A model generated the notes under the pieces. The model ran no database searches. It saw only the letters and a list, made by a program, of their open reading frames with translations, and was not told the DNA's origin. A stretch of DNA of 64,000 bases from Oligella urethralis DSM 7531 (GTDB lineage: Bacteria > Pseudomonadota > Gammaproteobacteria > Burkholderiales > Burkholderiaceae_B). The stretch spans positions 9,375-73,374 of the forward strand of contig NZ_AQVB01000001.1 in NCBI RefSeq assembly GCF_000372065.1, written 5' to 3'. How positions within the stretch are numbered: position 1 is the stretch's first letter; the number at the start of each line of letters is the position of its first letter. Below, in pieces: positions 45,553 through 63,531 of this stretch. The position numbers and the translations under genes were made by a program.

Positions 45553-45606
45553 CTCTGGCTATAGGGGCCAGAGTCCGAGGGAGCGCTGCTGAGGCGCTCC
45601 TTTTTT
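45553..45606 (+). terminator. Tandem hairpins and terminator after the acyl-CoA synthetase
   Basis: First hairpin CTCTGGC (45553-45559) with GCCAGAG (45567-45573). The second, GGAGCGC (45580-45586) with GCGCTCC (45594-45600), is followed directly by six T residues (45601-45606). The T tract overlaps the stop codon of the convergent tssG. Confidence 0.85.
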
Positions 45607-46648
45607 AGGCCTTGCCTTGACGAGCCTCATAATCAATAATTAATTCCTCAAAGTGCCCGCGCTCTGGGTTACGCTGACCTAAAAAGCTCTCTAAGCCCAA
45701 ACGACCACCTTGACCTAGGCGTAGCCCTTGAATCTCATCTTTATCCAATAATAAACGTGCATCCCACGCTAGCTCAATGCCAATGTATTGACGTACCCAA
45801 CTGACTAGCTCCTTGGATTGTTGTGCTTGAGGAAAAAAACGACGGTATTGCGCCAAGGACAAGGGACCCAGTTCTAAACGAAATTTATGCTGTGCATCTT
45901 TGACTTTACTGCCTAAAATCGTATCCTTACCAAGGGCGACCGGGTTTTGACCTAGTTGAATTTGGTGTTCGGGATGAAGTTCAATCCATTGTGGAATAAA
46001 CTCTTTAAGCGCTACCTCTATGCCAAAAAAGCGCTTAAGTATGGAGACTAGGCCCTCGGGATTGCGGCTTTGGCGCGCTAAATGACCAGCAAAATAAAAT
46101 TTCACATGATCATAAATGGCATCGCGCTCCAACAGGGAGTCCATGCCCATGCTGATTAAACTAGCAACATGGCGACTAAAGGCGGAGTTTTTGCGGTCCA
46201 AGCTAACAGTGGTTTGTGAGTCGGCCCAGGCCCGGTAAAACAAGGTGATTAAGCGATGATGAAAAATATCCGCAAAGGCTGACAGCGTATGATCTTTATG
46301 ATGATGGATACGCTCATGTACATATTCAGTAATATGTAAAGGCAGCGGACCGTTGGGACCGAAGAGACCAAAGCCTAAAATCGAGATGGTGCTAGGACGA
46401 CCGGGTTTGCGCTCCACCTTGGTGAGGTTAGAGGGCGCAAACGACATGGACGGCTCTTGGCGCAGCCTAACCGGTTCATGCTTAGGCAGGCTGTTGCGGC
46501 CGATAGGTTTTAATAAATCACTACGTGCGTCAATAAAACGCAGTACTTGATAAAAACTATGGGCGTAGGGATCGGCTTCGAGTGTGTGCCAATAGTCATT
46601 TAGCGCAACGAGATCCTTGGGGGTGGTGACAGTACGATTTTTGCTCAT
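45605..46648 (-). CDS. tssG: T6SS baseplate subunit TssG
   Basis: A 347-residue TssG. Landmarks are HSFYQVLRFIDARSD near the N-terminus, FGPNGPLPLHITEYVHER, and a central FFHHRLITLFYRAWADSQ-like block, with the C-terminal LGRRNPERGHF-like end. TssG joins TssF, TssE and TssK in the baseplate wedge. It is alone on the minus strand, whereas tssF normally precedes it in the same operon; here tssF is not in view. The ATG at 46648 is chosen over TTG codons upstream. Divergent from tssH with a 144-base shared upstream region. Confidence 0.9.
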   Translation of the reverse strand: MSKNRTVTTPKDLVALNDYWHTLEADPYAHSFYQVLRFIDARSDLLKPIGRNSLPKHEPVRLRQEPSMSFAPSNLTKVERKPGRPSTISILGFGLFGPNGPLPLHITEYVHERIHHHKDHTLSAFADIFHHRLITLFYRAWADSQTTVSLDRKNSAFSRHVASLISMGMDSLLERDAIYDHVKFYFAGHLARQSRNPEGLVSILKRFFGIEVALKEFIPQWIELHPEHQIQLGQNPVALGKDTILGSKVKDAQHKFRLELGPLSLAQYRRFFPQAQQSKELVSWVRQYIGIELAWDARLLLDKDEIQGLRLGQGGRLGLESFLGQRNPERGHFEELIIDYEARQGKA

Positions 46649-46792
46649 ATGCAACAACACAGTGAAGCGTGCAGTTTAGCGAATAATTATTGCAATTTGA
46701 TGAATCTAAGAACTGTCATCAAAGTGCAAGATTGGGGCTTTAAAATCAGCTTCATTATTGTGCTTTTGTATCAAGTTTGTTAAGAGTTTAAG

Positions 46793-49432
46793 ATGTCAGA
46801 AATTAATCGTGCTGATCTGTTTGCCAAATTAAATCCTACCCTCTATCGAGCGCTTGAGGGGGCAACTGCTTTTTGTAAATTACGTGGCAATCCCTATGTG
46901 GAATTAGTGCATTGGTTGCACCAATTAATGCATGAGCATGATACTGATATACAAAAAATCTTACGCTATTTTGAAATCCGCCCTGAGGATGTAGAGCAGG
47001 GGATTATCGTTGCGCTTGAGGAGCTGCCACAGGGTGCTAGCTCAATATCCGATTTGTCCGAACATATTGATAACGCCACTGAGCGGGCATGGGTCTACGG
47101 CTCCTTAAAATATGGCGATGCACGGATTCGCAGTGCTTATTTAATGCTCGGTATTTTAAAAAGTAATTCCTCACGCAATGTACTGTATGGGATTAGTCCC
47201 GCCTTTAAAAAAATTATCCCCGATGTGTTGGCGGATAAGTTAAATCAAATTGTTAAAGGCTCTGCCGAGGATCATCAAACGGCGGCTTTGCGAACAGACG
47301 AAATCGGTACTGCTGCAGCCAGTACGGGCGGGGGCGGGCAGCCATCAGCGTTGGCGCAATATGCGGTCGATATGACCGAGCGTGCACGCAACAATGAAAT
47401 TGACCCCGTTTCTGGACGTGATGAAGAAATCCGTCAAATGGTGGATATTCTGATGCGCCGTCGTCAAAATAACCCCTTATTAACGGGTGAAGCGGGGGTG
47501 GGTAAAACGGCTGTGGTCGAGGGCTTTGCCTTACGTTTGGCCAAGGGCGATGTGCCTGAATCATTACGTGATATGTCGCTGTATCTCTTAGATATTGGTT
47601 TACTGCAAGCAGGCGCCAGCATGAAAGGTGAGTTTGAGTCCCGTTTGCGTGCCGTGATTGATGAGGTGCAAGCCAGTGAAAAGCCCATTGTCTTATTTAT
47701 TGATGAGATTCATACCTTGATCGGTGCGGGTGGTGCTGCCGGTACTGGTGATGCCGCCAATCTACTGAAGCCTGCCTTGGCGCGGGGTGAGTTGCGCACC
47801 ATTGGTGCCACCACCTGGGCGGAGTACAAAAAATACATTGAAAAGGATCCTGCCTTAACGCGCCGTTTCCAAACCATCCAAGTGCATGAGCCAGATGAGA
47901 AAAAAGCACTGATTATGTTGCGTGGCTTAGTCGATAAATTAGAAGCACATCACCAAGTGCTGCTGTTGGATGAAGCGGTAGAAGCAGCGGTTAAGCTATC
48001 GCATCGTTATATTCCAGCACGTCAGCTACCGGATAAAGCCGTTGCTTTACTAGATACGGCATGTGCGCGGGTTGCGGTGAGCCAATATGCACAGCCTGCT
48101 GCTTTGGAGGATTTGAATCGCAAGATTGAGCATTTGACGGTAGAAAAAGGCATTGCTGAACGAGAATTAGCCTTGGGCCTGGGTGAGGCAGCACGCATTG
48201 AAGCAATTGAGCAGGAGCTTAAGGAGGCCGAGACCCAACAGCTTGCTTTACAGGCGGCATGGGAGGCTGAGCAGCGCTTGGCATCGGAGCTGTTTGAGCT
48301 ACGTCGTAGCCTACGAGAGGCCTCGGAGTTAAGTGAGGAAGCGCGTGCGGAGATGTTGCAGCGGGTGCAGCAATTGCAAGAGGAGTTATTAAGTCAGCAG
48401 GGTGAGCAGCCATTGATTTTCCCGGCAGTCGATGGTGCTGCCGTAGCCGCAGTGGTGGCTGATTGGACAGGCATCCCGGTCGGTCGCATGGTCAAAGATC
48501 AAGCGAACTCGATTTTGCATTTAGCCACGACCTTGGAGCAACGTGTGATTGGCCAATCACATGCCCTAACAGCGATTGCCGAACGTATTCAAACCTCGCG
48601 TGCTAAATTAACTGATCCGAACAAGCCGGTCGCTGTCTTTATGCTTTGTGGCCCTAGCGGTGTAGGTAAAACGGAAACCGCCTTAGCGCTGGCAGAAACG
48701 CTGTATGGTGGTGAGCAGAATTTAATCACGATTAATATGAGCGAGTTTCAAGAAGCGCACACTGTTTCTACCTTAAAAGGCGCCCCTCCGGGCTATGTGG
48801 GTTACGGTGAGGGTGGTGTTCTAACGGAGGCGGTACGTCGTCGTCCGTATAGTGTGGTGCTCTTAGATGAAGTGGAAAAAGCGCATGCAGATGTGCATGA
48901 AATGTTCTTCCAAGTCTTTGATAAAGGCTGGATGGAAGATGGCGAGGGGCGCTACATCGACTTTAAAAACACGGTGATTATCTTAACCTCCAATGTGGGC
49001 ACAGAGCGCATTATGGAGGTGTGTAAAGACCCTGAATTGATGCCGGATGCCGAAGGACTGGCAGCCGTCTTGCGTGAGCCCTTACTGAACGTCTTTCCGG
49101 CCGCCTTGTTGGGGCGTTTGGCAGTGGTGCCCTACTTCCCACTATCTGATGATATGCTGGCTAAAATTGTGGACTTGCAGTTGGCGCGTGTTCAGAAGCG
49201 CCTGACTGAGCACCATGGGATTGAGTTAGTGGTGGCGCCGGAAGCAGTGCAGTTAATTGTGGATCGGTGTACCGAAGTGGAGTCAGGCGGTCGTATGGTT
49301 GATGCGATTTTAAATAGCTCTGTCTTGCCTAAAGTCAGTCGTCGTATCTTAGAAGCGGCGATGGCGGGTGATGCAATTCAGCGTTTAAGCTTAAGTGCTG
49401 AAGATAGTGAGTTTGTCTTTCATTACAGTTGA
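46793..49432 (+). CDS. tssH: T6SS sheath-disassembly ATPase TssH (ClpV)
   Basis: An 879-residue AAA+ unfoldase. It has the Clp N-domain (1-155), the first AAA domain with Walker A GEAGVGKT at 232-239, a middle coiled-coil region, and the second AAA domain with Walker A GPSGVGKT. The arginine-finger and sensor segments are preserved. ClpV dismantles contracted TssB/TssC sheaths for recycling. It is transcribed alone before an unrelated FAH gene. Confidence 0.94.
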
Positions 49433-50262: not shown

Positions 50263-50296
50263 GACTCGGGAAATAGCTATTTCCCGAGTCGTTTTT
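50263..50296 (+). terminator. Terminator of the FAH gene overlapping the fha stop
   Basis: A perfect 28-base palindrome (50263-50290; arm GACTCGGGAAAT, loop about 4 bases) followed by TTTTT (50292-50296). Its right half includes the last codons and stop of the convergent FHA gene. Confidence 0.85.
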
Positions 50297-51254
50297 GTTG
50301 AGCTAGCTCAAGTAGAATCGTGTCCAAATGATCGAGCGTGGCATGATTGCTTTTTAGCTCTTGCTCATTCGCATGTAGTAGGGTGCTGGGGCGCTGGTCT
50401 TGCAAAATATCTTTTTTCTGATGCTCAATGCCGTCGCGGCTGAGGCGCTCTAGCGGGTCCTTACTAAGATTATCGTCTAAGGCAATGCCCTGTAATTCAG
50501 CCAGGGGATCATGGCTATTACGGACAGTACCTGAAGTCATATCAAAGGGGTGGATATCATAATTGATGTCGCTTGCTCCTACGGGTACAACACCAGCGCC
50601 ATCAAATAAGCTATCAAAAATGGAGGCGCTGTTGTCGGCAGCGGATTCAGATGCTAGCTGAGTCGCCGTGCCGAGTTCGGTGAACGGCGGGGGTGATGGC
50701 TCGATATCACTCCTTAGTTCAGTAGTTGCCTCAACTAAGGGCTCAAACACGGTATTTTGTTCAGGCGCTGGCTGCTGGGGGCTCAGATTAATGATTTCCG
50801 CAAGCGGCGCCACTGCGACGGGATTTGGAGCAAGGTGGTGCGTCGCCGTCGGCATCTCGACAGTACCCGGCATCGGCATCACCGTCGGTGCTTTGAGCGG
50901 GCGTTGAGTGGCTTGCTGTGCAGGGGGCACTTGTGGCGCCAAGCTATTGCTTTCAGTTACGCTAATATTAAAATAAAAATCACCGCAACTAAACTCACTG
51001 TCGCTTTTTAAGACCATAGTCTCACCTACTTTGAGGCTGTGGTTGCCAACTAGAATTGGTGTCAGCGCCAAATTACGAATGCTAATCTGAGCCGCATCAT
51101 CTATTGTGATCGCCGCTTGAAACAGGCTGATAGAGAGGGAGGGATCCGCTAGGGCAATATGATTTTCCGGGCTTCTGCCGATGGTTAAGCCCGGGCTGAC
51201 TAGGTCAAAACTTCGCTCAAATGACTTAGATTGATTGTGAACCGTAATTTTCAT
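50277..51254 (-). CDS. tagH: T6SS FHA-domain protein (Fha/TagH) with degenerate phosphopeptide site
   Basis: A 325-residue protein with an N-terminal FHA domain (about 3-98) and a Pro/Ala-rich and acidic C-terminal region. The fold start TIGRSPENHI is present (Arg27). The canonical S-G-R-H-A stretch is S43-L-F-Q46-A, so the Arg and His that build the phosphothreonine pocket are Phe and Gln. In other T6SSs Fha is phosphorylated by PpkA and drives assembly. Here phosphothreonine binding is doubtful. It is on the minus strand next to a TssQ-like lipoprotein gene. Confidence 0.8.
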   Translation of the reverse strand: MKITVHNQSKSFERSFDLVSPGLTIGRSPENHIALADPSLSISLFQAAITIDDAAQISIRNLALTPILVGNHSLKVGETMVLKSDSEFSCGDFYFNISVTESNSLAPQVPPAQQATQRPLKAPTVMPMPGTVEMPTATHHLAPNPVAVAPLAEIINLSPQQPAPEQNTVFEPLVEATTELRSDIEPSPPPFTELGTATQLASESAADNSASIFDSLFDGAGVVPVGASDINYDIHPFDMTSGTVRNSHDPLAELQGIALDDNLSKDPLERLSRDGIEHQKKDILQDQRPSTLLHANEQELKSNHATLDHLDTILLELAQQKRLGK

Positions 51255-51296: not shown

Positions 51297-51818
51297 TTAA
51301 TTGCTTTTGGCATTGGTGTTAGGACGCTGGCGTGGACCGACCCGAATTTCTGAGCGCGGCATCGTGGTCGCTTTTTCTAAAGCGCCGTTCTTTTGTGCTT
51401 TAGCCATCGCGGCATCAGCGCGTTTCTTTTCAGCGGTATAGACTTTACCCCATTGCGGATGATTGACCTCAGCTGGACTTAGCTCAAAGCTAGGATCCAA
51501 TTCTAATAGCTGTCTAAAGCTGTTGCGGCAGTTGCGTGGCTGACGACTGACGCATTCACTAAAGGCTTTGTATTTTAAAGCCTCCGTACGAAAAGCCTGA
51601 CCGCCTAGGCTAGTTTCAGGCGCTTGCTTGATGGTTGCAATGACTTTTTTGTAATCGCCCTCGTGGAATTGCGTTTCAATTTGTTCTAACAAAATGGTTT
51701 CCGCTGGCGTCATTTTAGGGGCTTCAGGTGCCTTTGAAGTGCCTGCACAAGCGCTTAATAAGACGCTGAGGGCAGCGCCGCTAATCATCAGTGTAAGTCT
51801 TTTTTGCATAAACATCAT
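51297..51818 (-). CDS. TssQ-like T6SS-associated lipoprotein
   Basis: A 173-residue lipoprotein with lipobox LSAC (Cys24 from the first ATG), then a helical repeat-like region (LEQIETQFHEGDYKKVIATIKQ, AFSECVSRQPRNCRNSFRQLLELDPSFEL) with tetratricopeptide character. Two cysteines (C-V-S-R and N-C-R) may form a disulfide. The tail is basic. Its position, divergent from tssJ and upstream of fha, and its size fit the TssQ family of betaproteobacterial T6SS loci. Several ATGs (51818, 51815, 51809) could be the start. Confidence 0.7.
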   Translation of the reverse strand: MMFMQKRLTLMISGAALSVLLSACAGTSKAPEAPKMTPAETILLEQIETQFHEGDYKKVIATIKQAPETSLGGQAFRTEALKYKAFSECVSRQPRNCRNSFRQLLELDPSFELSPAEVNHPQWGKVYTAEKKRADAAMAKAQKNGALEKATTMPRSEIRVGPRQRPNTNAKSN

Positions 51819-51978: not shown

Positions 51979-52503
51979 ATGATGCAGATGATGTGTAGAA
52001 AAAGTTTGGCTGTGGCGGCCTTGACCAGTACGGTGTTGTTGGCGGGTTGTGCAGCCACAGAGTCTAAGTTGGCGGTGCCGTATGTGGTTGAGTTAAGCGC
52101 AGCAAAGAATGTGAATTCCGGTGGTCGTCATCAGCCTTCACCCATTAAAGTCACGGTGTATGAGCTAAAAACAACAAATGCCTTTGAGTTAAGTGACTTT
52201 TTTTCCTTACAGAAAGATGCGCGTGCCGCCCTCGGTGATCAGCTGCTCAATGTGAATTCCGTGATTTTGACCCCGGGTAAAACGGAGCGCATTACGGCTC
52301 ATGGCAATGTCGACGCTAAGGTGTTGGGCATTGTGGCGGCCTATCGTGATCTGGACAACAGTCAATGGCGTATGACGGTTGAACTGCCTGCTGCTAAAAG
52401 CACCAATATCTATAAGTTTTGGCAGTTTTCACCAAGTGCCGCTGTGATTAAAGTCGATGTCGAGCGTAATGCCTTGCAAATCAGACCAGCAGAACAAAAA
52501 TAA
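51979..52503 (+). CDS. tssJ: T6SS outer-membrane lipoprotein TssJ
   Basis: A 174-residue lipoprotein: signal segment with lipobox LAGC (Cys24), then a transthyretin-like beta-sandwich with VTVYELKTTNAFELSDFFSL, PGKTERI and a loop before IVAAYRDLDNSQWR, all typical of TssJ. It anchors the TssLM membrane complex to the outer membrane. It opens the long T6SS operon. Confidence 0.9.
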   Translation: MMQMMCRKSLAVAALTSTVLLAGCAATESKLAVPYVVELSAAKNVNSGGRHQPSPIKVTVYELKTTNAFELSDFFSLQKDARAALGDQLLNVNSVILTPGKTERITAHGNVDAKVLGIVAAYRDLDNSQWRMTVELPAAKSTNIYKFWQFSPSAAVIKVDVERNALQIRPAEQK

Positions 52504-52536: not shown

Positions 52537-53883
52537 ATGAATAGTTTTGATAAAGTGATTTGGTCTGAAGGCATGTTTTTGCGGCCTCAGCATTTCCAAC
52601 AACAAGAGCGATATTTAGAGCGTCAATTGGTGGCTCGCTCACAGCAGGCAGATCATTATTTTTGGGGCTTTAGTGAGTTGCAGTTAGATACGGAGGGTTT
52701 TGCTCAAGGTCGTGTGGGGCTGACACGGGCTAAAGGCTTTTTTAAAGATGGCACTAGCTTTGTGGTCGATGAGTCCACACCGTCCGTGTCCTTAGCTGTG
52801 CCACAGGCGGTTAGTAATGAATTGGTCGGTGTGGCCATTCCTACACGTCAAGCCTCTAGACAGCAGGTTGCCTTTGAAGAAGGTGAGGATTTGCTGGCAC
52901 GATATGCAGTGACGGAGCAGGAGATTGTGGATACGACCGATACTACCTTGGGTGCGGTTAATTTGCAGTTGGGGCGTTTACAAATTCGTTTGCTATTAGC
53001 CAGTCAAGTGGACGCCAATTATGAGTTTTTGCCGATTGCGCGAATCAAAGGGCGCGATAGTAAAAATGCCTTAGTCATTGATACAGCTTATATTCCACCG
53101 ACTTTAAATTTTATTGAAGTTAAAAATAATCTGTTGAGTTTTCTGGTCACGGCGGTGGATTTATTAAACGAGCAGGTTAAGCGTTTATCCCGTCGCTTAT
53201 CCGCTTCAGCCATACAAAATGGCAGTAGTTCATTGACCCAAATGATGATGTTAAGTGTGATTAATCGTTATCACGCCTATTTTCATCATTTACTTAGCTC
53301 GAATTATCATCACCCCGAAGGCTTTTTTTGCAACTTACAAATGCTATTAAATGAAATGGCGGTGTTTTTAAGTGAGCAGCGCGCCATGGAGCAGTTCGCA
53401 CACTATGACCATGATGATTTGCAGGCCTCTTTTGCGCCGTTGATGGGACAGTTAAATGCGGCCTTGAATATTGTCTTGGATGATCCTTATGAGGTCATTG
53501 AGTTTGTGGATAAAGGGCATGGTTTACGGGTGGCTCAATTAACGGATCTGAACTTAATTAAGCAAGCGGAATTTATTCTCGGGGTCAAAGCGGATATGCC
53601 CATGGATAGTTTACGTAAGCACTTCCCAGCACAAGCAAAATTCGGTCCGGTTGAGCGGATTCGTGATCTGGTGCATTTGCAATTGCCGGGTGTGAATGTA
53701 CAAAGTGTGGAGCAAATTCCACCGCAATTACCGTATCACTCCGGTTATGTTTATTTTACATTCCAACAAAGCGGTGATTTATGGCAGCAGTTTGCCAGAT
53801 CAGGTGTGTTAGCTTTGCATTTGGCGGGCGAGTTTCCAGGGTTAGAAATGGAGTTCTGGGCCGTACGTAATAAAAATAGGTAG
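52537..53883 (+). CDS. tssK: T6SS baseplate protein TssK
   Basis: A 448-residue TssK. The N-terminal WSEGMFLRPQHFQQQERYLE signature is exact, as are the central coiled shaft and the C-terminal EFWAVRN. It links the baseplate to the membrane complex. Downstream of tssJ by 33 bases and upstream of tssL by 5. Confidence 0.95.
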   Translation: MNSFDKVIWSEGMFLRPQHFQQQERYLERQLVARSQQADHYFWGFSELQLDTEGFAQGRVGLTRAKGFFKDGTSFVVDESTPSVSLAVPQAVSNELVGVAIPTRQASRQQVAFEEGEDLLARYAVTEQEIVDTTDTTLGAVNLQLGRLQIRLLLASQVDANYEFLPIARIKGRDSKNALVIDTAYIPPTLNFIEVKNNLLSFLVTAVDLLNEQVKRLSRRLSASAIQNGSSSLTQMMMLSVINRYHAYFHHLLSSNYHHPEGFFCNLQMLLNEMAVFLSEQRAMEQFAHYDHDDLQASFAPLMGQLNAALNIVLDDPYEVIEFVDKGHGLRVAQLTDLNLIKQAEFILGVKADMPMDSLRKHFPAQAKFGPVERIRDLVHLQLPGVNVQSVEQIPPQLPYHSGYVYFTFQQSGDLWQQFARSGVLALHLAGEFPGLEMEFWAVRNKNR

Positions 53884-53888
53884 GCAAA

Positions 53889-55184
53889 ATGTCTTCTTCA
53901 GACTATAGCGATTCTAAAATGGGGCCGTGGGGAGCGGCCGGTGTTTTTCAGTCCGCACAGGCGAATGAGCTACGCCCGGACGATTATGTTATCAGTGGTT
54001 CTAACCCTTTAGTGGCTGCCGCCAATCCCTTATTGGTGTTGATTCCTCAGCTTAGAAACTCCAAATCGCATGAGAATTTGGACTTGTTACGTGAGCGACT
54101 GGTCGATGAGATTCGACAGTTTGAGCTAAGAGCGCAGCATGCCGGGGTGCCAAATGAAACCATTCTGGGGGCGCGTTATTGTCTTTGTACCGCGCTGGAT
54201 GAGGCATGTGCCTTGACCCCATGGGGTGGTCACGGGCAATGGTCAGGCAAGAGCTTATTGGTCACCTTTCATAATGAGACCTGGGGCGGAGAGAAGTTTT
54301 TCCAGTTATTGGCTAAGCTGTCACAAAATCCTAGTACCCACATTGATTTATTAGAGTTACTGTATTTCTGCTTAATGCTGGGTTTTGAAGGGCGTTATCG
54401 GGTGATGGATAACGGCCGCACGCAGCTAGAAACCTTAAAGCAACGCCTGCTCTTAACCCTCAAAAATGTACGCGGGCAGTATCCACATGCCTTATCACCC
54501 CATTGGCAAGCTGAGGCTATCTTAAATCAGGTCAAACGCTTACCCATCCCGCTTTGGGTGGTGGCCCTGGCGGTGGTGTTTTTTGGCATCTTGGCGTATC
54601 TCGGCTTTTCTTGGTTATTGGGTAGCTCATCCGATAAGTTATTTTCTCAGATTGTCCGTGTGCAGCCACCACGTATGCAAATACAGGCGCCAGTAGAGCG
54701 ACGTACGGTACCGGTGCCCGATCGTTTGGCCACTTTTTTAGCTCCTGAAATTCGTGAGAATTTATTGACCGTGCGTGATGAAGCGGATCGAAGTGTGGTG
54801 GTGCTCCGAGGTGATGGCTTGTTTGAGTCCGGCTCAGTGCAGGTAAGACAACAGTTCTTACCGGTGTTAAGCCGCGTGGCGGATGCCTTAAATGGCACGG
54901 TCGGTGCGATTTTGGTCACGGGTTATAGCGATAATGTGCCGATTAGAACGCTGCAGTTTCCATCGAACTGGGAGCTATCGCAAGCGCGTGCGGATTCGGT
55001 CAAGGCCTTATTAGAATCCCGTTTGCGTGAGCCGAATCGAGTGCGCGCCGAGGGTCGGGGTGAGGCAGAGCCGGTGGCGCCGAATGACTCGCCTGAAAAC
55101 CGTGCTAAAAATCGTCGAGTTGAAATTACCTTATTAGTCTCACCCGTGAGTGAACAAAGTCAGTTAAGAGAGCCGCAGCGATGA
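53889..55184 (+). CDS. tssL: T6SS inner-membrane protein TssL with C-terminal OmpA domain
   Basis: A 431-residue fusion. A cytoplasmic DotU/IcmH domain (about 35-215; ARYCLCTALDEAC, LLYFCLMLGFEGRYRV) precedes a transmembrane helix (about 219-245) and a periplasmic OmpA-type peptidoglycan-binding domain (about 300-425; GYSDNVPI, NWELSQARADSVKALL, NRRVEI). The short form of TssL ends after the helix, so this is the extended class that carries its own cell-wall anchor. The stop overlaps the tssM start by 4 bases (ATGA). Confidence 0.93.
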   Translation: MSSSDYSDSKMGPWGAAGVFQSAQANELRPDDYVISGSNPLVAAANPLLVLIPQLRNSKSHENLDLLRERLVDEIRQFELRAQHAGVPNETILGARYCLCTALDEACALTPWGGHGQWSGKSLLVTFHNETWGGEKFFQLLAKLSQNPSTHIDLLELLYFCLMLGFEGRYRVMDNGRTQLETLKQRLLLTLKNVRGQYPHALSPHWQAEAILNQVKRLPIPLWVVALAVVFFGILAYLGFSWLLGSSSDKLFSQIVRVQPPRMQIQAPVERRTVPVPDRLATFLAPEIRENLLTVRDEADRSVVVLRGDGLFESGSVQVRQQFLPVLSRVADALNGTVGAILVTGYSDNVPIRTLQFPSNWELSQARADSVKALLESRLREPNRVRAEGRGEAEPVAPNDSPENRAKNRRVEITLLVSPVSEQSQLREPQR

Positions 55185-58100
55185 GTTGGTTACTTGATTT
55201 ACCCAGTCGAATATTAAGTTTTATTTTTAGCCGCGGCTTATGGACTTTTGTGGGTTTATTTATCTTGGCGTGGCTGATCTGGTATATTGGCCCATCGATT
55301 GCGGTGGGGCAATGGTATCCCTTAGAGGATAGGCAAGTACGCATTTATTTGATCGGGGCAATTTTCGGGATTTGGCTACTTAGACTGATCTGGCGTAAAT
55401 GGCGTGAAGGACGCTTAAATGCACAGCTGTTAGGCAAAATTCGTCAACCTAAAAATGACGCTGCGATTAAAGACTTACCGGCAGAAGAGCAGGAAGAGAT
55501 TAAGATTCTTGCCGAGCGGTTTAATGAGGCCGTCACCTTATTAAAGCATGCACGCTTTGAACAGGGTGCTGAGCGCTCGCCGTTGGCGCGTTTTTCTAAG
55601 CAATATCTGTATCAATTGCCTTGGTATGTGTTTATCGGTGCACCTGGTTCGGGTAAAACCACGGCCTTAATTAATTCAGGCTTAAACTTTCCCTTGGCCG
55701 AAAAGTTCGGTAAGGTGGCGCTCAAAGGGGTTGGCGGTACGCGTAACTGTGACTGGTGGTTTACCGATGAAGCGGTGTTATTGGATACGGCAGGACGGTA
55801 TACCACGCATGAAAGTGATCCGACAGGCGATGAAAAAGAGTGGAAGGGCTTTCTTAATCTACTGACCAAGTACCGTGGCCGTCAACCGATTAACGGCGTG
55901 ATGTTAACCGTGAGTGTTGCCGATCTGCTCAGTGCTAATGCGACGGATAGAGCACAGCATGCCTTAGTGTTAAAGCAGCGCTTACAAGAATTACGGAATG
56001 AATTAGGGATTGAGTTTCCAGTCTATGTGCTGGTCACCAAAGTGGACTTGCTCAACGGCTTCGAGTCTTATTTCAATGACTTGAGTATGGAGGAAATGCA
56101 GCAGGTATGGGGCTTTACCATTCCCTATGAGCAGTCGCAAGCTAAAGGCTTTGAGCTGCTACCCGCCTTTGATAAAGAGTATTTGCTGCTGCAGGAGCGC
56201 CTGTTTGACTCATTGCCCGATGTGATGATGCGTACGGGCGATGAAAAGCATAGAGCGCTAGCGTATGCCCTACCACAACAGTTTGCTAATTTGCGAATGA
56301 TCTTAGGCAGCTTTTTAAATGATGTCTTTTCAAATTCCAAATTCGAGCAACGAGTCATTCCGCGCGGGGTGTATTTCACCAGTGGTACCCAAGGTGGCTT
56401 AGGTTTTGATAAGGTCACGGCGCAGTTAAAACGCTATATGCGGCTTGACGGTATGCAGCAACAGCAGGGCCTGTCAACGACTGAGGGCGGTAAAAGTTTC
56501 TTCCTAAGAAAGCTGCTACAAGAGGTGGTGTTCCAAGAGGCTGGTTTAGCTGGCTTGAATCTTAAGTGGGAGCGCCGTAAGCGCAAGATTCAATGGACAG
56601 CCTACGCTGTGATGGCCTCTGTCTTTGCGGTAGCGCTATTGGTGTGGGGTAATAGTTATTTTAAAAATAAAAGCTATCTGGCACAGGTTGAAGACAAACT
56701 ACCACCACTACAAAAGCTGTCGGAGGATATTAAGATCACTCAAACTGGGGATGTGCTGACGGTTTTACCTTTTTTAAATAGTACCTTGTTATTGCCGGAT
56801 GGCGCTGATTTTAAAGTCGATGACAGTCCCTGGGGCTACCATTTTGGCCTTTATCAAGGTAATAAAATCCAGGCGGCTGCCAATAGTGTTTATCAGGATG
56901 CGTTGAAAAATGTCTTATTGCCGCAAGTGGCAAAACGGGTTGAGGCTTCTTTGCGTCAAGCCAGTCCTGCGGATTTGGAATTATCGTATGAGGCATTGCG
57001 GGCGTATTTGATGATGTATGAGCCTGAGCACTACGATGCCTCGTATATGAAGACCTGGATTTTGGCGGATTTGAATGCGGTATTACCCAGCAATTTCACG
57101 ACCGAGCAGTATCGTTTGCTAGAACAGCATATTGATAATCTGGTGGGTGGCGGTGTTTTGGTTTCGCCCTTTCCTAAGGATGAGGCGTTGATTGCGGAGG
57201 TGCGCGATAACTTAAACCGGGTGTCGATGGCACGCCGTGCCTATAGTCGGATTGAGCGTATTCTCACCGCCGAAGCCGGTACGCCGATGAGTGTGATTAG
57301 TTTGGGCGGTTCGCAGGCGGCCTCTGTCTTTAAAAGAGAAAGTGGTAAACCCTTAAATCAAGGGGTGCCGGCTTTTTTCTCTTTTAATGGTTACTGGAAT
57401 GTCTTTGATAAGCGGGTTGAGCGTGAAACCATTCGTTTGCGAGAAGATGATGTATGGGTCTTAGATGCTGAAGCTAAGCAGCTCGCTGACGGTAGTGATA
57501 AGAAATTAGTCGACGATGTGCGCGTCATCTACTTTAATGAGTACGTTAAGCATTGGGATGCTTTTTTAGCCGATGTGGCCGTGGTAGTACCTGATAGCTT
57601 GGTCGGCGCGATTGAATTGGCACGTACCTTATCTTCTTCCAATTCGCCCTTAACCCGTTTTGTGCAGTCCGTGGCAAATGAAACTACCTTATTACGAAGC
57701 GATGATAAGAATGAGCGCTCCATCGTCGATCGTGCCCGTGAACGAGCTACGAGCACCACCTCCTCATTGACCAGTATTATTGGTCCGGTCGGTGCCGGTA
57801 ATTTAGTGCGCACTGATGCGGGACCAGAGCGTTTAGAAGAATTGGTGGATCGTCACTTTGTACAATACCGCGAATTGGCGACCAGCGTGGGTCAAAATAG
57901 CGCCCCGCCAATTGATTCAACCGTGAGCTTATTAAGTGAGCTATATACCTACTTAACGGCAGCGGATACGGCGCTCAGAACGAAAACACCTTTACCCACA
58001 GCCGACGTAATTTCTAAATTACAGGCCGAGTCAGGTCGTTTGCCACCTGCGGTTGGTTCGATGCTCAATGATTTATCCGTGCAGGCGGCAGCCTCAGTGA

Positions 58101-58810
58101 ATTCGGTGCAGCAAAAAAATGTAGGCGAAGATGTGGATGCGATTTTGGGCAATTTTTGTCGGCAGGCGATTGCGGGACGCTATCCCTTTAGTCAGTCGAC
58201 ACGTGATATTGCACCTAATGACTTTGCCCGTTTCTTTGGCCATGGGCAGATGATGGATGAGTTTTTTCAGAAAAATATCAGTCATTTAGTCGATATGAGT
58301 ACACGTCCATGGCGCTTTAAACCGGGCGTTGATGGTAGCAAAGGTGATATTGCCCGTTTCTTGTCCTCCTTTGAAAAAGCCAGTGTGATTCGGGATGTGT
58401 ATTTTTCAGCAGGTAATCCTGCGCCCTCCTACAAGGTGTCCATTCGTCCGCTAGATATGGACCCCGGCATTATGCAATTTATTTTGGATGTGGACGGTCA
58501 GGTGTTGACTTATGAGCATGGTCCACAAGTTGGGGTGACCATGGATTGGCCAGGGCAACGTGGTAGTAATCAGGTGTCGATGAGTGCCAGTACGCAGCAG
58601 GGTAGCTCCGGTTTATCAACCTCTGGCCCGTGGGCCTTAAATCGTCTACTCGATCGTGCGTCTCTACGTCAAGGGCGCTCTTCCGAGGTAACCATTGCTA
58701 CTTTTTCCTTAGGGGGTAGAAGTGTCACCTTGGAATTTACGGCCTATTCGGCTAAAAGTCCTTTCCGTTTAAATGAAATGCGTAGCTTTGTCTGTCCGGG
58801 GAGAAACTAG
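55181..58810 (+). CDS. tssM: T6SS inner-membrane protein TssM (IcmF)
   Basis: A 1209-residue IcmF protein of normal size. Two N-terminal transmembrane helices (about 18-40 and 54-72) precede a cytoplasmic NTPase-like domain with Walker A GAPGSGKT at 153-160 and Walker B-like LLDTAGRY. A third helix near 470-490 leads to a large periplasmic part ending in the TssJ-binding C-terminal beta domain (LNEMRSFVCPG). The intact Walker A suggests nucleotide binding is retained. ATG overlaps the tssL stop. Confidence 0.94.
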   Translation: MSWLLDLPSRILSFIFSRGLWTFVGLFILAWLIWYIGPSIAVGQWYPLEDRQVRIYLIGAIFGIWLLRLIWRKWREGRLNAQLLGKIRQPKNDAAIKDLPAEEQEEIKILAERFNEAVTLLKHARFEQGAERSPLARFSKQYLYQLPWYVFIGAPGSGKTTALINSGLNFPLAEKFGKVALKGVGGTRNCDWWFTDEAVLLDTAGRYTTHESDPTGDEKEWKGFLNLLTKYRGRQPINGVMLTVSVADLLSANATDRAQHALVLKQRLQELRNELGIEFPVYVLVTKVDLLNGFESYFNDLSMEEMQQVWGFTIPYEQSQAKGFELLPAFDKEYLLLQERLFDSLPDVMMRTGDEKHRALAYALPQQFANLRMILGSFLNDVFSNSKFEQRVIPRGVYFTSGTQGGLGFDKVTAQLKRYMRLDGMQQQQGLSTTEGGKSFFLRKLLQEVVFQEAGLAGLNLKWERRKRKIQWTAYAVMASVFAVALLVWGNSYFKNKSYLAQVEDKLPPLQKLSEDIKITQTGDVLTVLPFLNSTLLLPDGADFKVDDSPWGYHFGLYQGNKIQAAANSVYQDALKNVLLPQVAKRVEASLRQASPADLELSYEALRAYLMMYEPEHYDASYMKTWILADLNAVLPSNFTTEQYRLLEQHIDNLVGGGVLVSPFPKDEALIAEVRDNLNRVSMARRAYSRIERILTAEAGTPMSVISLGGSQAASVFKRESGKPLNQGVPAFFSFNGYWNVFDKRVERETIRLREDDVWVLDAEAKQLADGSDKKLVDDVRVIYFNEYVKHWDAFLADVAVVVPDSLVGAIELARTLSSSNSPLTRFVQSVANETTLLRSDDKNERSIVDRARERATSTTSSLTSIIGPVGAGNLVRTDAGPERLEELVDRHFVQYRELATSVGQNSAPPIDSTVSLLSELYTYLTAADTALRTKTPLPTADVISKLQAESGRLPPAVGSMLNDLSVQAAASVNSVQQKNVGEDVDAILGNFCRQAIAGRYPFSQSTRDIAPNDFARFFGHGQMMDEFFQKNISHLVDMSTRPWRFKPGVDGSKGDIARFLSSFEKASVIRDVYFSAGNPAPSYKVSIRPLDMDPGIMQFILDVDGQVLTYEHGPQVGVTMDWPGQRGSNQVSMSASTQQGSSGLSTSGPWALNRLLDRASLRQGRSSEVTIATFSLGGRSVTLEFTAYSAKSPFRLNEMRSFVCPGRN

Positions 58811-58812
58811 GG

Positions 58813-59541
58813 ATGTCATCTTCAGCTTATACGCCGAGTATTGATGATCTGAGTCGTGCCTTAGGCTGGTACGGCAAACTGCCTGCTGCCGGTGATTTTG
58901 TGCGGCGACGTCTTAGTTCAGAATTAGTGAATTGGTGGCATCGCTGGTTGGAGTTGGGTTTGCCTAGTGTTAAAGAGAGTGCTGCTAAGCAAAGCCTGTT
59001 TTTTCATGCACCGATTTGGAATTTTGCGCTGCCTGCCAGTCATGGTTGTGATGTGGTGCAGCTTGGTTGTGTTGCGCCTAGTCGCGATCGGGTCGGCAGA
59101 CTCTATCCTTTATTAGTTAGCTTATATGTGCCACCGAGCTATTTTGAGCCACAGCTTATTGCAGGTTCTGCACGATTTTATCAGCAAATTGGTAAGTCCT
59201 TATTACAAGCTGTGTCCTTGGGCTGTTCGGTGGAGCAATTTGATCGTAGTCTGGCGGATATCAGTTTAACCATGACGGCCATGCTGAAGCGTCATAGCGC
59301 AATAGCTACCCCATCCTGTGGTGATGATATTTTGTCCATTTTAAATGAGGGGCATAGCACAGCGCCGACTGAGCAGCTAGAGGAAGAGGGTTCTTCCTGG
59401 CCCAATTTAGCGAACTTTTTCGAGCCCCAAGGTAGCAACAGTTATTGGTGGACCAATCAGGCAACGGGTGCGGCTTTGCGTGCACAAGTGCATGGTGGTG
59501 CACCGAATGCCGCCTTATTTAAAACGCTTTTTCTTGCTTAA
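58813..59541 (+). CDS. tagF: T6SS post-translational regulator TagF
   Basis: A 242-residue protein starting with the TagF/DUF2094 core GWYGKLPAAGDFVRRRL and WW(x)RWLELGL, with CVAPSRDRVGRLYPLLV and SYWWTN later. TagF represses T6SS assembly in other bacteria by binding Fha, independently of the kinase pathway. That independence matters here, since kinase and FHA look degenerate. Two bases separate it from tssM. Confidence 0.92.
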   Translation: MSSSAYTPSIDDLSRALGWYGKLPAAGDFVRRRLSSELVNWWHRWLELGLPSVKESAAKQSLFFHAPIWNFALPASHGCDVVQLGCVAPSRDRVGRLYPLLVSLYVPPSYFEPQLIAGSARFYQQIGKSLLQAVSLGCSVEQFDRSLADISLTMTAMLKRHSAIATPSCGDDILSILNEGHSTAPTEQLEEEGSSWPNLANFFEPQGSNSYWWTNQATGAALRAQVHGGAPNAALFKTLFLA

Positions 59542-59568: not shown

Positions 59569-61812
59569 ATGTTGATTAATGTACAAGTGTCCCAAGCCCT
59601 TAGTCAGGTGCCTGCGACTTGGAAACCCTTACGGCAAACCGCATTGTGGACTGATAAGGTCAGTCTTGGAGACTTGCAAGACTTACTGGCAGATTTACGC
59701 TTAGGGCTGAGTCAACTGCATCAGCAAAATCGCTATTATGGGCTATGGTCTTTAGATACGATCTTTCAAGATGGAAGTGGGCGCTTTCATCTATTGCCGG
59801 GGGTTAGTCAGCAGCTAAGCAAAGAGCTTGATCAGCAACCCTTATTACCCGTGTGTGCAGCGTTTGAGCAATTTACCGAGGATGCGGCTTGGCCTTTAGG
59901 TGAACATACGGATGTGTATGGCTTGGCGACCTTAATGCGTTTTTTAATTTTAAAAACGCAACCGCTAAGTGCGATTAATCGCTTAGTTAATGAGCAAGAA
60001 CGTTTGACCAACTTGGGCTTGGAAGATCGCTTTAATCGACAATATTTACGTGCCATTGATATGGCGACGGCGATTGAAATTAAGGATCGTATCAGCACCA
60101 TTGATGAGTTTAGTGAGTTACTTGGTTTGCCACCGCTGCAACATGCCCCGGGATTACGCACACAAGTAATCACAGAAGCGCCGCTGTCCGCTACTACTGC
60201 CTCAGTGGTGGCGAGGCCAACGCCAGTGCAGGAGGTTGCAGTTGCCCCGCTGGGTGATCTAAGGTCAGATGAGACCGTAAGCGATGTGCCGGCGGCAGCG
60301 CTAACACAAGACAGCGCATCAGAGCAAGCAACCGTGCTTGAGCCAAGCGCTCGACAGGAAGCGGACACTGCTCAGGCGCAGCCGCTTGAGGAGGCGCCGC
60401 TGATGGAGCAGACTCAGTCTGCCGATCTAGTCACAAGCGCAGCAGAGGCAGAGGATGCCTCCATCGGTCTAGAGGAATTAGGTATGGGAGGGGCTCCGCT
60501 AACTGCTGTGCCACCCGCTGAAGTAGCAACGCATCAGCCCACGACAGATGAGGAGCCTAGCTCAGCAGAGCCAAGAGAAAGCAGTGCGATGGCGAGTGAG
60601 GCAGCCACAGTCACCACGGCGACGGCGAGCAGTGTGCCACCGTCAAAGGCAACATCAGCCACGACCCCAGCAGAGGAAGTGGGCACCAGTGCGGATGCTG
60701 AGGGATCAACAACAGCACCGGATGAGCCATTTGACTCCTTAAAAGCGCAGAAGCAATCATTGCAAAAACGCCCTCAAAAATCCTCAAAACTATTGATCTA
60801 TCCGGCGGCGGCGATTGCCTTAGTTGTGATTCTAAGTACGCTCTTTTACTTATTGTTTAGTAAAGATAGTGAGCAACAACAAGAGGCGATAGAGGCGCAA
60901 ATTGCACAAATGCAAGAAGCAGCTGAAGCTCAGGCAGAGCAAGCAAGACAAGCGGCATTAGCCCAAGCTGAAGCAGTTAGCGGCGCTGTAAACATCCAAG
61001 TAGCACAAACCGAACAGAGCATGCAAGGCACCATGGAGTCGCTATCGACGGCAGCCCCTACGCCGCAGGTGGGGCAAGCAAATCAAGCGCCGGCTCATAA
61101 CGTAGAAACCGCAGCACAGGAGGAAGCGCTTAGTGATAGCGAGGAGCCGTCGCCAGCGTCTTCGGATGCCACCTTGTTAAGCAGTTTGGTGACAGCGCCC
61201 GCGGAGGAAAAGGAGACGACAGAAGCTACAGCGAGCGAATCAGAATCGACAGTGGCAGGTGTAGAGCAGACGCCATCTGAAGCTGTCTCCGAGGATGCGC
61301 TTGTGCGGGACGAAGCCGCCGCAAGCGCCACCACCGCCACATCAAGCTTGACAGAAGCACAAAATCAGCCAACGGAGTCACCTGCAACAAGCACGCTGGG
61401 CAACGATAATGCAATGACCGCACAGGATGCTGAGCGTCAGCAGCAGCAAGCCTTGGAACGTGAGGCTGAGGAGCGTCGTCTGGCGGCTGAAAAAGAACGT
61501 GAAGAACGACAAGAGCGGCTGCGTTTAGAACAAGAGGAAAAAGAACGTCAGCGCCTACAGGCACAAGTGCAGGCGGATAAGGAAAGACGTGAGCGTCAAC
61601 AGGCTATGGGCACCTTAAACTTAGATATTCGCCCTTGGGGTAATGTCAGTATTAATGGTCGCGGCTATGGTGCTAGTCCACCGCGTAATAGCATACGCCT
61701 AGCGCCAGGTACTTATAGCGTGGTCGTGACCAATGGTGATTTACCGGCATATCGTACCAGCGTCACGATTCAAACGGGTGGCCGTACTACCATCAGCCAT
61801 CATTTTGAATAG
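59569..61812 (+). CDS. T6SS pseudokinase with transmembrane helix and PEGA domain
   Basis: A 747-residue protein. Residues 35-190 resemble only the C-lobe of a Ser/Thr kinase: [17 protein letters not shown] stands where HRD and its Asn should be, HLLPGV replaces DFG, and the helix-F motif [13 protein letters not shown] and a final [11 protein letters not shown] arginine remain. No N-lobe, P-loop or catalytic Lys exists, and only 27 bases separate the gene from tagF. Next are a roughly 215-residue Ala/Glu/Thr-rich linker, one transmembrane helix (about 407-430), an acidic linker, an Arg/Glu coiled coil (about 620-680) and a C-terminal PEGA domain (about 680-747). It sits where ppkA is expected. 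A scaffolding role is inferred. Confidence 0.8.
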
Positions 61813-61880: not shown

Positions 61881-62936
61881 ATGGTAACGTTTGAAGAAAT
61901 TGCCGGTTCTTTTAGTAATGAAAATTGCGGTGAGAACTTAGAGTATAGCCAAGAGTTTTTGGCATTGACGCGCTCCTTGGAGTATAAGCCTGAGCAGCAG
62001 TTCGGTGACACCATTATTGAAGCGGAGTCACCCGAGTGGAATCAAGCAGAGCGCCAAGCCTTAGCACTATGCGCCAAAACATGTGATGTACGGGTATTGG
62101 AGATGCTGGTACGCACATGGGCGGCACAACATGGTTTGCCCGGCTATGCCAATGGCTTGGAAATCGTGTTTAAGGCCATTCGTGCGTTTTGGGATGGCAT
62201 CCACCCGCCCTTGGTTGAGGATGACGGTTATGAGGATCCATTGCCCAGAATTAATGCGCTTAATGCCTTGGTGACCGTTGATGGTGTGTTAGGTATTTTA
62301 CGCTCTGCACCGATTTTAAGTGGCACCTATGGTCAGCTCAGCTTGCGCGAGGCGGAGCAGGTTATTGATGGCTCAAAAACGGATTTTCCGGGTGGTCGCG
62401 GTCGTTTAGCAGAGATGCTGAGCCAAGCCAAAATTACTGATGAGGCTGAGATCAATGCCCTTTATCAGGCGCACAGCTGGTTGCGGCAGATTGAGGAGCT
62501 GGTGCTTGAAAAGCTAGGCCATGAATGGCGTCCCGAATTTAATCAAGCCCTTCAGTTGTTCGACGTCATTATGAACGTCGTCGGCAATCCACAGCCCGCC
62601 GGCACTGAAGCTAGCTCAGCGCCTGAGGAATCGAGCAGTGCGCAACATGCGGGCGAGTCGAGCCATCAAGCTAGCCAACTTAGCAAAGTAGAAGCAATTA
62701 AGGAGGTGTCTTGGAAAGAGCTCAGTATCAGTACGCGAGCCGATGCCATCTTAGCTTTGGAAAAGGTCTGTAGCTACTTTGAAGTGCATGAGCCCAGTCA
62801 TCCAGCGCCTTTTTTAATCCGTCGAGTCCAACAAACCATACCGTTGAACTTTTACGACATGATTAAAAACTTGGTGCCAGGCAGTCATGAGCAGTTCGAT
62901 ATTTGGTTAGCAAAAACAGAGGATAACGACGAATAA
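61881..62936 (+). CDS. tssA: T6SS sheath-priming protein TssA
   Basis: A 351-residue protein with the ImpA N-terminal domain (CGENLEYSQEFLALTRSLE ... W..A.RQALALCAKTCDVRVLEMLVRTW ... GLEIVFKAIRAFWDGIHPPL). A Ser/Ala-rich hinge (about 240-270) precedes the C-terminal helical part. The length suits the short TssA class. TssA caps the growing sheath end and recruits TssB/TssC. It lies between the pseudokinase and tssB. Confidence 0.9.
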   Translation: MVTFEEIAGSFSNENCGENLEYSQEFLALTRSLEYKPEQQFGDTIIEAESPEWNQAERQALALCAKTCDVRVLEMLVRTWAAQHGLPGYANGLEIVFKAIRAFWDGIHPPLVEDDGYEDPLPRINALNALVTVDGVLGILRSAPILSGTYGQLSLREAEQVIDGSKTDFPGGRGRLAEMLSQAKITDEAEINALYQAHSWLRQIEELVLEKLGHEWRPEFNQALQLFDVIMNVVGNPQPAGTEASSAPEESSSAQHAGESSHQASQLSKVEAIKEVSWKELSISTRADAILALEKVCSYFEVHEPSHPAPFLIRRVQQTIPLNFYDMIKNLVPGSHEQFDIWLAKTEDNDE

Positions 62937-62994: not shown

Positions 62995-63531
62995 ATGCAA
63001 CGTAAAAAAACCGCAAGCGGTCAGAAGTTTATCTCACGTAACCGCGCCCCACGAGTACAAATTGAGTATGACGTTGAAATTTACGGGGCTGAACGTACTA
63101 TCCAATTGCCTTTTGTTATGGCGGTAATGGCTGACTTGGCAGGTAAATCAGAAGTACCTAAGACCGATGTGAGTGAGCGTCAATTTATGGAGATTAGCAT
63201 CGATAACTTTGACGATCGCATGAAATCCATTAAACCACGTGTTGCGATGCAGGTTGAAAACACCTTAACTGGTGATGGTATTTTAAATGTGGATATGACC
63301 TTTGAAAGCATGGAGGACTTTAATCCAGCCAATGTGGCGCGTAAGATTGAGCCCCTAGCAGAGCTACTCGAAGCGCGTACGGAATTAGCTAATTTACTGA
63401 CCTATATGGACGGTAAAATCGGTGCTGAAGAGCTGATTAATCAGGTTTTACAAAATCCGGCCTTATTAAAATCATTAGCCGCTGCACCAAATACAACAGC
63501 AGAAAAAACCACCACGGATGATGAGAACTAG
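62995..63531 (+). CDS. tssB: T6SS contractile sheath small subunit TssB
   Basis: A 178-residue TssB (VipA). It has VQIEYDVEIYGAERTIQLPFVMAVMADLAG, then FDDRMKSIKPRVAMQVENTL and the C-terminal helix AELLEARTELANLLTYMDGK. It pairs with TssC to form the contractile sheath. A GGAGGA ribosome site precedes the ATG. Confidence 0.95.
   Translation: MQRKKTASGQKFISRNRAPRVQIEYDVEIYGAERTIQLPFVMAVMADLAGKSEVPKTDVSERQFMEISIDNFDDRMKSIKPRVAMQVENTLTGDGILNVDMTFESMEDFNPANVARKIEPLAELLEARTELANLLTYMDGKIGAEELINQVLQNPALLKSLAAAPNTTAEKTTTDDEN

Follow-up and report, generated by a model that had tools for sequence, protein, structure and literature searches.

A predicted PpkA-derived pseudokinase without an N-lobe, carrying a PEGA-like end, in the type VI secretion cluster of Oligella urethralis and its family

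The gene that follows tagF in the type VI secretion system (T6SS) cluster of Oligella urethralis DSM 7531 is, judging from its sequence, a homologue of ppkA over the kinase C-lobe only, to which it has been reduced. Its product is predicted not to be an active kinase, although it is a homologue of PpkA nonetheless. We think it quite likely that this catalytically dead protein is kept by selection as a scaffold, and the best explanation overall, which we also consider likely, is a membrane scaffold or sensor that works free of phosphorylation and corresponds to ppkA minus its ATP-binding half.

Results

Organization of the gene and the cluster

The stretch of DNA analyzed here, hereafter the window, comprises 64,000 nucleotides. 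The pseudokinase ORF starts with an ATG 27 bases downstream of the tagF stop codon and lies upstream of tssA (Table 1). Around it, a tssQ-fha pair on the minus strand (51818-50277) is divergent from tssJ-K-L-M-tagF-[pseudokinase]-tssA-B-C, and an ImpE gene is located 3' of tssC, as seen at locus L136. The hcp gene of the same genome is on a different contig from the T6SS cluster. An in-frame stop is present 4 codons 5' of the pseudokinase ATG (751 aa for the stop-to-stop frame, 747 for the ORF); because the frame is only 4 codons longer, no alternative start of the gene could supply an N-lobe.

Table 1 Features of the pseudokinase gene and its T6SS cluster in the window
Feature	Residues	Nucleotides	Strand	Basis or remark
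Predicted pseudokinase gene (PpkA-derived, no N-lobe; TM helix; PEGA-like domain at the C-terminus)		59569..61812	+	747 aa
Kinase C-lobe domain	about 20-190	59626..60138	+	hhalign against full kinases; PDB profile match to PpkA 5hnv residues 121-297
Degenerate catalytic loop	57-64	59737..59760	+	alignment
E100, APE glutamate	100	59866..59868	+	invariant, 39/39
D115, alpha-F aspartate	115	59911..59913	+	invariant, 39/39
R174, alpha-I arginine	174	60088..60090	+	invariant, 39/39
Cytoplasmic linker, fast-evolving	195-395	60151..60753	+	dN 0.682 against 0.131 for the C-lobe, window versus L033
TM helix, N-in by the positive-inside rule	about 408-431	60790..60861	+	charge count
Conserved charged stretch, coiled-coil-like composition	about 610-675	61396..61593	+	coil by eye; dN 0.138
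PEGA domain	692-746	61642..61806	+	19.7 bits against a Pfam cut-off of 20.8; also our own profile
tagF (TagF_N)		58813..59541	+	family scan
TssQ-family lipoprotein, companion of PEGA genes		51297..51818	-	NF038027, 106.7 bits, cut-off 65
Fha (FHA domain retaining the pThr-contact R and S; no T6SS_FHA_C found)		50277..51254	-	family scans
tssL with OmpA domain		53889..55184	+	family scan
tssA		61881..62936	+	family scan
tssG		45605..46660	-	
ClpB/ClpV-type ATPase gene		46793-49432		
Presumed tssJ		51979..52503	+	named from sequence and gene order
Presumed tssK		52537..53883	+	named from sequence and gene order
Presumed tssM		55181..58810	+	named from sequence and gene order; relatives seen in other loci
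Presumed tssB		62995..63531	+	named from sequence and gene order; relatives seen in other loci

Homology of the C-lobe and loss of catalytic residues

A Pfam scan of the single pseudokinase sequence gave no kinase match at E<=1, and just 2 of 34 C-lobe domains, each scanned as a single sequence, matched Pkinase at E<=0.01. Because single-sequence Pfam searches are nearly blind to these C-lobes, profiles were built for the comparison from 34 of the 39 C-lobe-only domains and from 18 of the 24 full kinases that we collected. The two profiles were aligned by hhalign with a probability of 99.9% and an E value of 5.4e-38, and the C-lobe profile covered positions 99-273 of the 274 in the full-kinase template, that is, the C-lobe only. 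In the PDB, the top match of the 34-row profile was PpkA (5hnv; E 2.9e-41, 144 bits), spanning residues 121-297 of the 302 in the chain, and the second was the eukaryotic kinase GCN2 (41 bits).

In protein kinases, the HRD and DFG motifs and the catalytic Asn serve catalysis, and the APE glutamate, the alpha-F aspartate and the alpha-I arginine are part of the scaffold of the C-lobe. The window protein has Y57, G58 and L59 in place of HRD, T64 in place of the catalytic Asn, and P77, G78 and V79 in place of DFG, and it keeps the three scaffold residues (E100, D115 and R174). When 39 C-lobe-only domains were aligned with 24 full kinase domains, all three scaffold residues proved to be retained in every C-lobe-only domain (39/39), whereas of the same 39 only 4 retain the HRD-Asp, 2 the DFG-Asp and 1 the catalytic Asn; the full domains retain all six positions in 24 of 24 cases. 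Four residues are invariant in the 34-row C-lobe alignment, and the P-loop Gly and the catalytic Lys are invariant in the 18 full kinases. A C-lobe core that is held while the catalytic residues are lost is the pattern expected if the fold was kept and catalysis abandoned. Since it lacks both the N-lobe and the catalytic residues of an active PpkA, we do not class the protein as a PpkA kinase.

A split kinase, in which an N-lobe encoded elsewhere would complete the fold in trans, is extremely improbable. Nothing was found in its favour, and we rejected it because an N-lobe profile, which matched three of three full-kinase genomes, had no match in the eight C-lobe-only genomes searched (of 35); moreover, the catalytic Asp, the Asn and DFG are mostly missing from the C-lobe anyway.

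Distribution and single origin of N-lobe loss

The TagF_N search covered 151 genomes from the family of the window and 150 from its order, some of them in both sets (301 look-ups). We examined 87 distinct TagF_N places, of which our own TagF query recognised 80; no kinase-like ORF was found at the remaining seven (L107, L119, L120, L126, L133, L134 and L135). With a limit of 90 bits for kinase matches, which excluded an 18-bit match at L097 and a second weak match at L052, a C-lobe-only gene follows tagF at 35 of the 87 places, a full kinase occurs at 14, and the stretch holds neither at 38; among the 80 recognised loci, 31 are without a kinase gene, including L062, which is cut off by a contig end. 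A further gene end on a 5-kb contig that lacks tagF (L059, genome G003) was left out of the counts of this slot and of TssQ. All 35 C-lobe-only T6SS loci belong to the window's family and represent 13 genera. The PEGA-like end is visible in 33 of them, the other two being cut by contig ends, and in 1 of the 14 full-kinase TagF loci. The tagF stop and the catalytic loop are 46-98 codons apart in the 35 C-lobe-only loci, compared with 157-236 codons where a full kinase directly follows tagF (10 loci); two further full kinases lie 590 and 1162 codons past tagF, and two are elsewhere in the stretch.

In a domain tree, which was midpoint-rooted only, one branch splits the 39 C-lobe-only domains (the 35 from T6SS loci plus L036, L041, L043 and L046) from the 24 full ones with a support of 99/99, and it was recovered in 100% of 200 bootstrap trees. 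A TssM tree built with FastTree, which carries local support only and long-branch warnings, places the cluster of genome G248, which has a full kinase with a PEGA-like end, beside the C-lobe-only clusters (support 100). On this tree, the C-lobe-only label takes two changes, with the cut-off locus L062 sitting inside the group; there are 36 TagF loci with a window-like TssM (>1200 bits), and the C-lobe is found in 35 of them, the 36th being the one cut off. At the G248 locus (L171), the order is tagF-[full kinase+PEGA-like]-tssA-tssB, with a divergent tssQ-fha-pppA, and this arrangement is likely to be the older state of the locus. One N-lobe loss would be the simplest account of the C-lobe-only group, and we infer that the window gene descends through that loss from a kinase-TM-PEGA gene like that of G248. 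Because one ancestral loss explains them, counts across these loci are not independent.

Membrane topology, PEGA-like end and TssQ

Lysine and arginine number 6 per 25 residues on the N side of the single TM helix and 1 on the C side. This positive-inside bias would place the C-lobe in the cytoplasm and the PEGA-like end in the periplasm, so that we infer a single-pass inner-membrane scaffold. The original prediction had described an N-lobe-less pseudokinase in the ppkA slot after tagF, with no hidden N-lobe upstream, one TM helix and a C-terminal PEGA domain. The profile homology confined to the PpkA C-lobe, the lost catalytic residues, the in-frame stop and the helix at residues about 408-431 all agree with it. 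The slot stands as a position after tagF, but the gene there is a reduced ppkA homologue and not a foreign filler. PEGA was detected at residues 692-746 with an E value of 7.8e-4, but its 19.7 bits fall below the Pfam PF08308 gathering score of 20.8. A profile of our own, built from 25 such C-terminal ends, unites them as a group; the Pfam PEGA model gave 18.7, 20.8 and 12.1 bits for the relatives L033, L049 and L037, nothing for L041 at E<=0.5 and nothing for L171 at E<=0.01. Given these weak scores in relatives, PEGA-like is the careful name.

A candidate periplasmic partner, which goes beyond the original prediction, is encoded beside fha by the lipoprotein gene that matches the NCBIfam TssQ family. 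NF038027 also matched 24 of 24 relatives at E<=0.01, and the 24 rows share a lipobox-type Cys, two further invariant cysteines and an E..HP.WG motif; the TssQ profile had no match in the PDB below E 0.005. In the stretches fetched, TssQ was found at 41 of 49 PEGA loci versus 0 of 43 TagF loci without PEGA (L062 excluded). The former comprise 29 of the 35 C-lobe-only T6SS loci (two with the PEGA end cut off; the six misses are all in genus g16) and 12 of 14 other PEGA loci (L118/L171 counted once; the misses are L054 and L058). Bacteroidota TssQ is TM-anchored and part of TssNQOPR, according to passages of one report (PMC10781749), and the window TssQ is set apart from that description by a lipobox-type Cys in place of an N-terminal TM helix; because of the TM anchor, the two probably share the name alone.

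TssQ is also present at loci in which TagF was not found. Its neighbours there are full kinase-PEGA genes (L044, L049 and L055), genes for PEGA proteins whose head looks cyclase-like by eye (L045, L051, L053 and L057), or C-lobe-only genes close to rpoC-like genes, again by eye (L036 and L041). Since PEGA-TssQ is found with full-kinase, C-lobe or cyclase-like heads, it resembles a module whose cytoplasmic head can be exchanged, and since the pair extends beyond T6SS stretches, the NCBIfam label "T6SS-associated" may be too narrow.

The C-lobe, TM and PEGA-like architecture outside T6SS loci, likewise new relative to the original prediction, is represented by L036:8961-10214, L041:9007-10278 and L046:8463-9827, which have rpoC or ribosomal neighbours by eye; TagF was not found in the stretches around these three. 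At L041, a CHASE2 sensor histidine kinase (Pfam) lies next to the C-lobe-only gene. At L045, L051, L053 and L057, a full kinase gene also adjoins the PEGA and TssQ pair. Tandem charged repeats were seen in the pseudokinase linker of L034:8892-11642 (G029), and none by eye in the window copy.

Changes in Fha and loss of the phosphatase gene

The T6SS_FHA_C domain (PF20232) was not found in any of the 10 C-lobe-only Fha proteins scanned (of 33 available), that of the window among them, whereas it was present in all 4 Fha scanned from full-kinase loci. Passages of a study of Agrobacterium describe R30 and S46 of Fha as mattering for phosphothreonine binding and secretion (PMC3953482). This pThr-contact pair of Arg and Ser is complete in 6 of 6 full-kinase Fha versus 8 of 33 C-lobe-only Fha, and in the other 25 one or both are missing; G012 and G077, whose Fha lie outside the stretches fetched, are not among the 33. 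The window Fha is one of the 8 that keep R and S, so the phosphate reader may not be dead here, although its SRxH motif is without the R and the H. The SRxH His is already Gln in 2 of the 6 full-kinase Fha, both from PEGA loci (L049 and L171), so that part of the Fha change preceded the N-lobe loss. A reader that changed partly earlier and is not dead everywhere argues against phospho-signalling having been lost cleanly and completely. The 33 C-lobe-only loci encode Fha proteins of 189 to 885 aa. Another FHA gene of the window's genome (C4:98161) might have been the true Fha of the T6SS but was rejected, because it lies in a 578-aa ORF that by eye resembles a CpaF/TadA-type ATPase and has pilus-type neighbours.

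No pppA follows the tssQ-fha pair in the window, and no PP2C_2 (PF13672) was found in the whole genome. We extended this search to 47 genomes, 35 C-lobe-only and 12 full-kinase (G173/L062 dropped). Of the 12 full-kinase genomes, 11 have PP2C_2 no more than 14 kb from the kinase, and the twelfth (G064) has it on another contig. By contrast, none of the 35 C-lobe-only genomes has it on the contig of the kinase gene within 100 kb, and 27 of them lack it altogether; contigs are short in a few genomes (G162, G174 and G079, the T6SS contig of G079 ending about 6 kb from tagF). The nearest among the C-lobe-only genomes is about 165 kb away (G161), and in four it is on another contig (G016, G106, G095 and G079). 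Fisher p values of 7e-10 for PP2C and 9e-4 for the FHA pair ignore the kinship of the genomes and, because the genomes share ancestry, are not counted as evidence. At the sequence level, then, the N-lobe and catalytic residues are gone group-wide, and the same genomes have an altered Fha and no PP2C at the locus. The original prediction is supported in part. Its differently wired T6SS control gains from the absence of PppA and the changed Fha, and its N-lobe loss proves to be conserved among orthologues at the 35 T6SS loci in 13 genera of the family; the membrane link that it proposed between Fha/TagF and the envelope is a conjecture.

If a different kinase carried out the phosphorylation, the pseudokinase might merely position the substrate as an adaptor. 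The 8 Fha proteins with both pThr-contact residues, including that of the window, and two matches to the Pkinase model in the window's own genome are consistent with this reading. However, the first match, P0001, has HYR for HRD and no DFG by eye; the second, P0002, is presumably a Kdo-type kinase, again by eye; the same genome has no PP2C_2; and 25 of the 33 Fha are damaged at the contact pair. We regard the adaptor reading as very unlikely, and the genome may be without an active Hanks-type kinase. P0001 (L001:1354-2217, contig C6, 287 aa) is the best Pkinase match of the genome and looks like a pseudokinase by eye.

Selection and covariation

Between the window and its closest relative, L033, dN was 0.131 for the C-lobe, 0.129 for PEGA and 0.138 for the stretch before PEGA, and 0.682 and 0.674 for two linkers; the corresponding values for tagF, tssQ and the FHA domain were 0.185, 0.291 and 0.223. 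Because dS is near saturation in several parts, only the dN contrast is relied on. The C-lobe is constrained as tightly as the PEGA end.

These values bear on two further explanations. If the C-lobe were a passive remnant, the working portion would be TM-coil-PEGA alone, acting with TssQ as a component of the envelope. PEGA-TssQ does occur with different heads (full kinase, C-lobe or, by eye, cyclase-like), and the cytoplasmic linker varies freely, as such a remnant would allow. Against it, the C-lobe has a dN about equal to that of PEGA and five times below the linkers, retains four invariant residues in 34 rows, and accompanies the window-like TssM at 35 of 36 loci, the last being cut off. 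We therefore consider a passive remnant unlikely. A decaying pseudogene or an assembly artefact, to which domain loss and fast linkers might point, is scarcely credible in view of open frames with the same architecture in 13 genera, the low dN in the domains, and a T6SS cluster that has tssG, with hcp elsewhere in the genome.

Distance covariation with the C-lobe gave partial r values of 0.23 for TagF, 0.20 for FHA, 0.24 for PEGA and 0.39 for TssJ, and 0.60 for TssM (controlled for TssK only); the PEGA-TssQ value was 0.21. TagF and FHA thus covary with the C-lobe no more strongly than PEGA, TssJ and TssM do, and no partner is singled out.

Discussion

The pseudokinase is most readily understood as a catalytically dead scaffold. 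We propose that, after loss of the ATP-binding half of ppkA, the C-lobe would have stayed as a cytoplasmic protein-docking platform, most likely for Fha and/or TagF, while the periplasmic part would pair with the TssQ lipoprotein at the envelope. The state of the envelope would then be relayed by conformation or clustering instead of phosphate, and the pseudokinase would bias a TagF-Fha-membrane complex towards or away from assembly. The C-lobe would be the docking face and PEGA-TssQ the sensing face of such a protein, with contacts that are presumptive. For a periplasmic PEGA and TssQ pair, the chances seem to us even, and TagF/Fha are tentative candidates for the partner of the C-lobe.

Several known systems can be compared with this arrangement. 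According to the cited passages of earlier reports, PpkA is activated by envelope proteins (TagQRST or RtkS) and phosphorylates Fha or TssL, which PppA reverses (PMC10482370, PMC5995506); TagF restrains Fha by direct binding independently of phosphorylation (PMC5995506); and an FHA protein is required in some T6SS without PpkA and PppA (PMC10482370, PMC5995506). T6SS lacking PpkA/PppA are thus already known. The Vibrio cholerae T6SS, as described in passages of one of these reports, has an FHA protein and no PpkA-PppA pair, as in the window, but both kinase and phosphatase are absent there, whereas the window keeps the C-lobe (PMC10482370).

The window gene has a C-lobe homologous to that of the T6SS PpkA of Pseudomonas, Serratia and Agrobacterium (kinase domain 5hnv) and adjoins tagF, as full kinases do at 10 of the loci surveyed. 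Unlike PpkA, it has no N-lobe or catalytic residues, carries a PEGA-like end and lacks PppA at its locus. The full kinase-TM-PEGA-like genes of G248 (L171) and G042 (L049) share the PEGA-like end, TssQ and a nearby Fha, and L171 also shares the T6SS gene order of the window; they differ in their intact HRD-Asp, Asn and DFG (as among the 24 full domains) and P-loop Gly and Lys (as among the 18), in a nearby pppA and in an Fha with T6SS_FHA_C. The mycobacterial pseudokinase MviN reportedly pairs with the FHA protein FhaA at the membrane, which resembles the window gene, but it is said to have both lobes and to be phosphorylated itself. To our knowledge, a lasting C-lobe-only kinase fold is rare. 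A literature search on type VI secretion and the PEGA domain, with subscription papers and preprints outside its scope, found none; papers matched by PEGA together with T6SS do not touch on this gene type, as far as their titles and the openings of their abstracts go. For type VI secretion and pseudokinases, no title among the matches listed was on a T6SS pseudokinase, and for a kept C-lobe with phosphatase loss, the titles, abstract starts and passages of the matches listed held nothing.

A broader account is conceivable, although we hold it short of probable: a phosphorylation switch may have become phosphate-free once, at the base of the T6SS lineage of this family, as the ATP half of the kinase and the phosphatase were lost and the FHA reader was shortened and started to erode, with the C-lobe coupling a PEGA and TssQ sensor to TagF/Fha by conformation alone.

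Control of the T6SS by PpkA, PppA and Fha is usually treated as a phosphorylation relay. In the examined genomes of the window's family, the usual protein phosphorylation probably plays no part in controlling the T6SS. The 35 loci in 13 genera amount to a natural experiment: the kinase has lost catalysis yet survives in part, so any role that it has beyond phosphotransfer can be tested directly.
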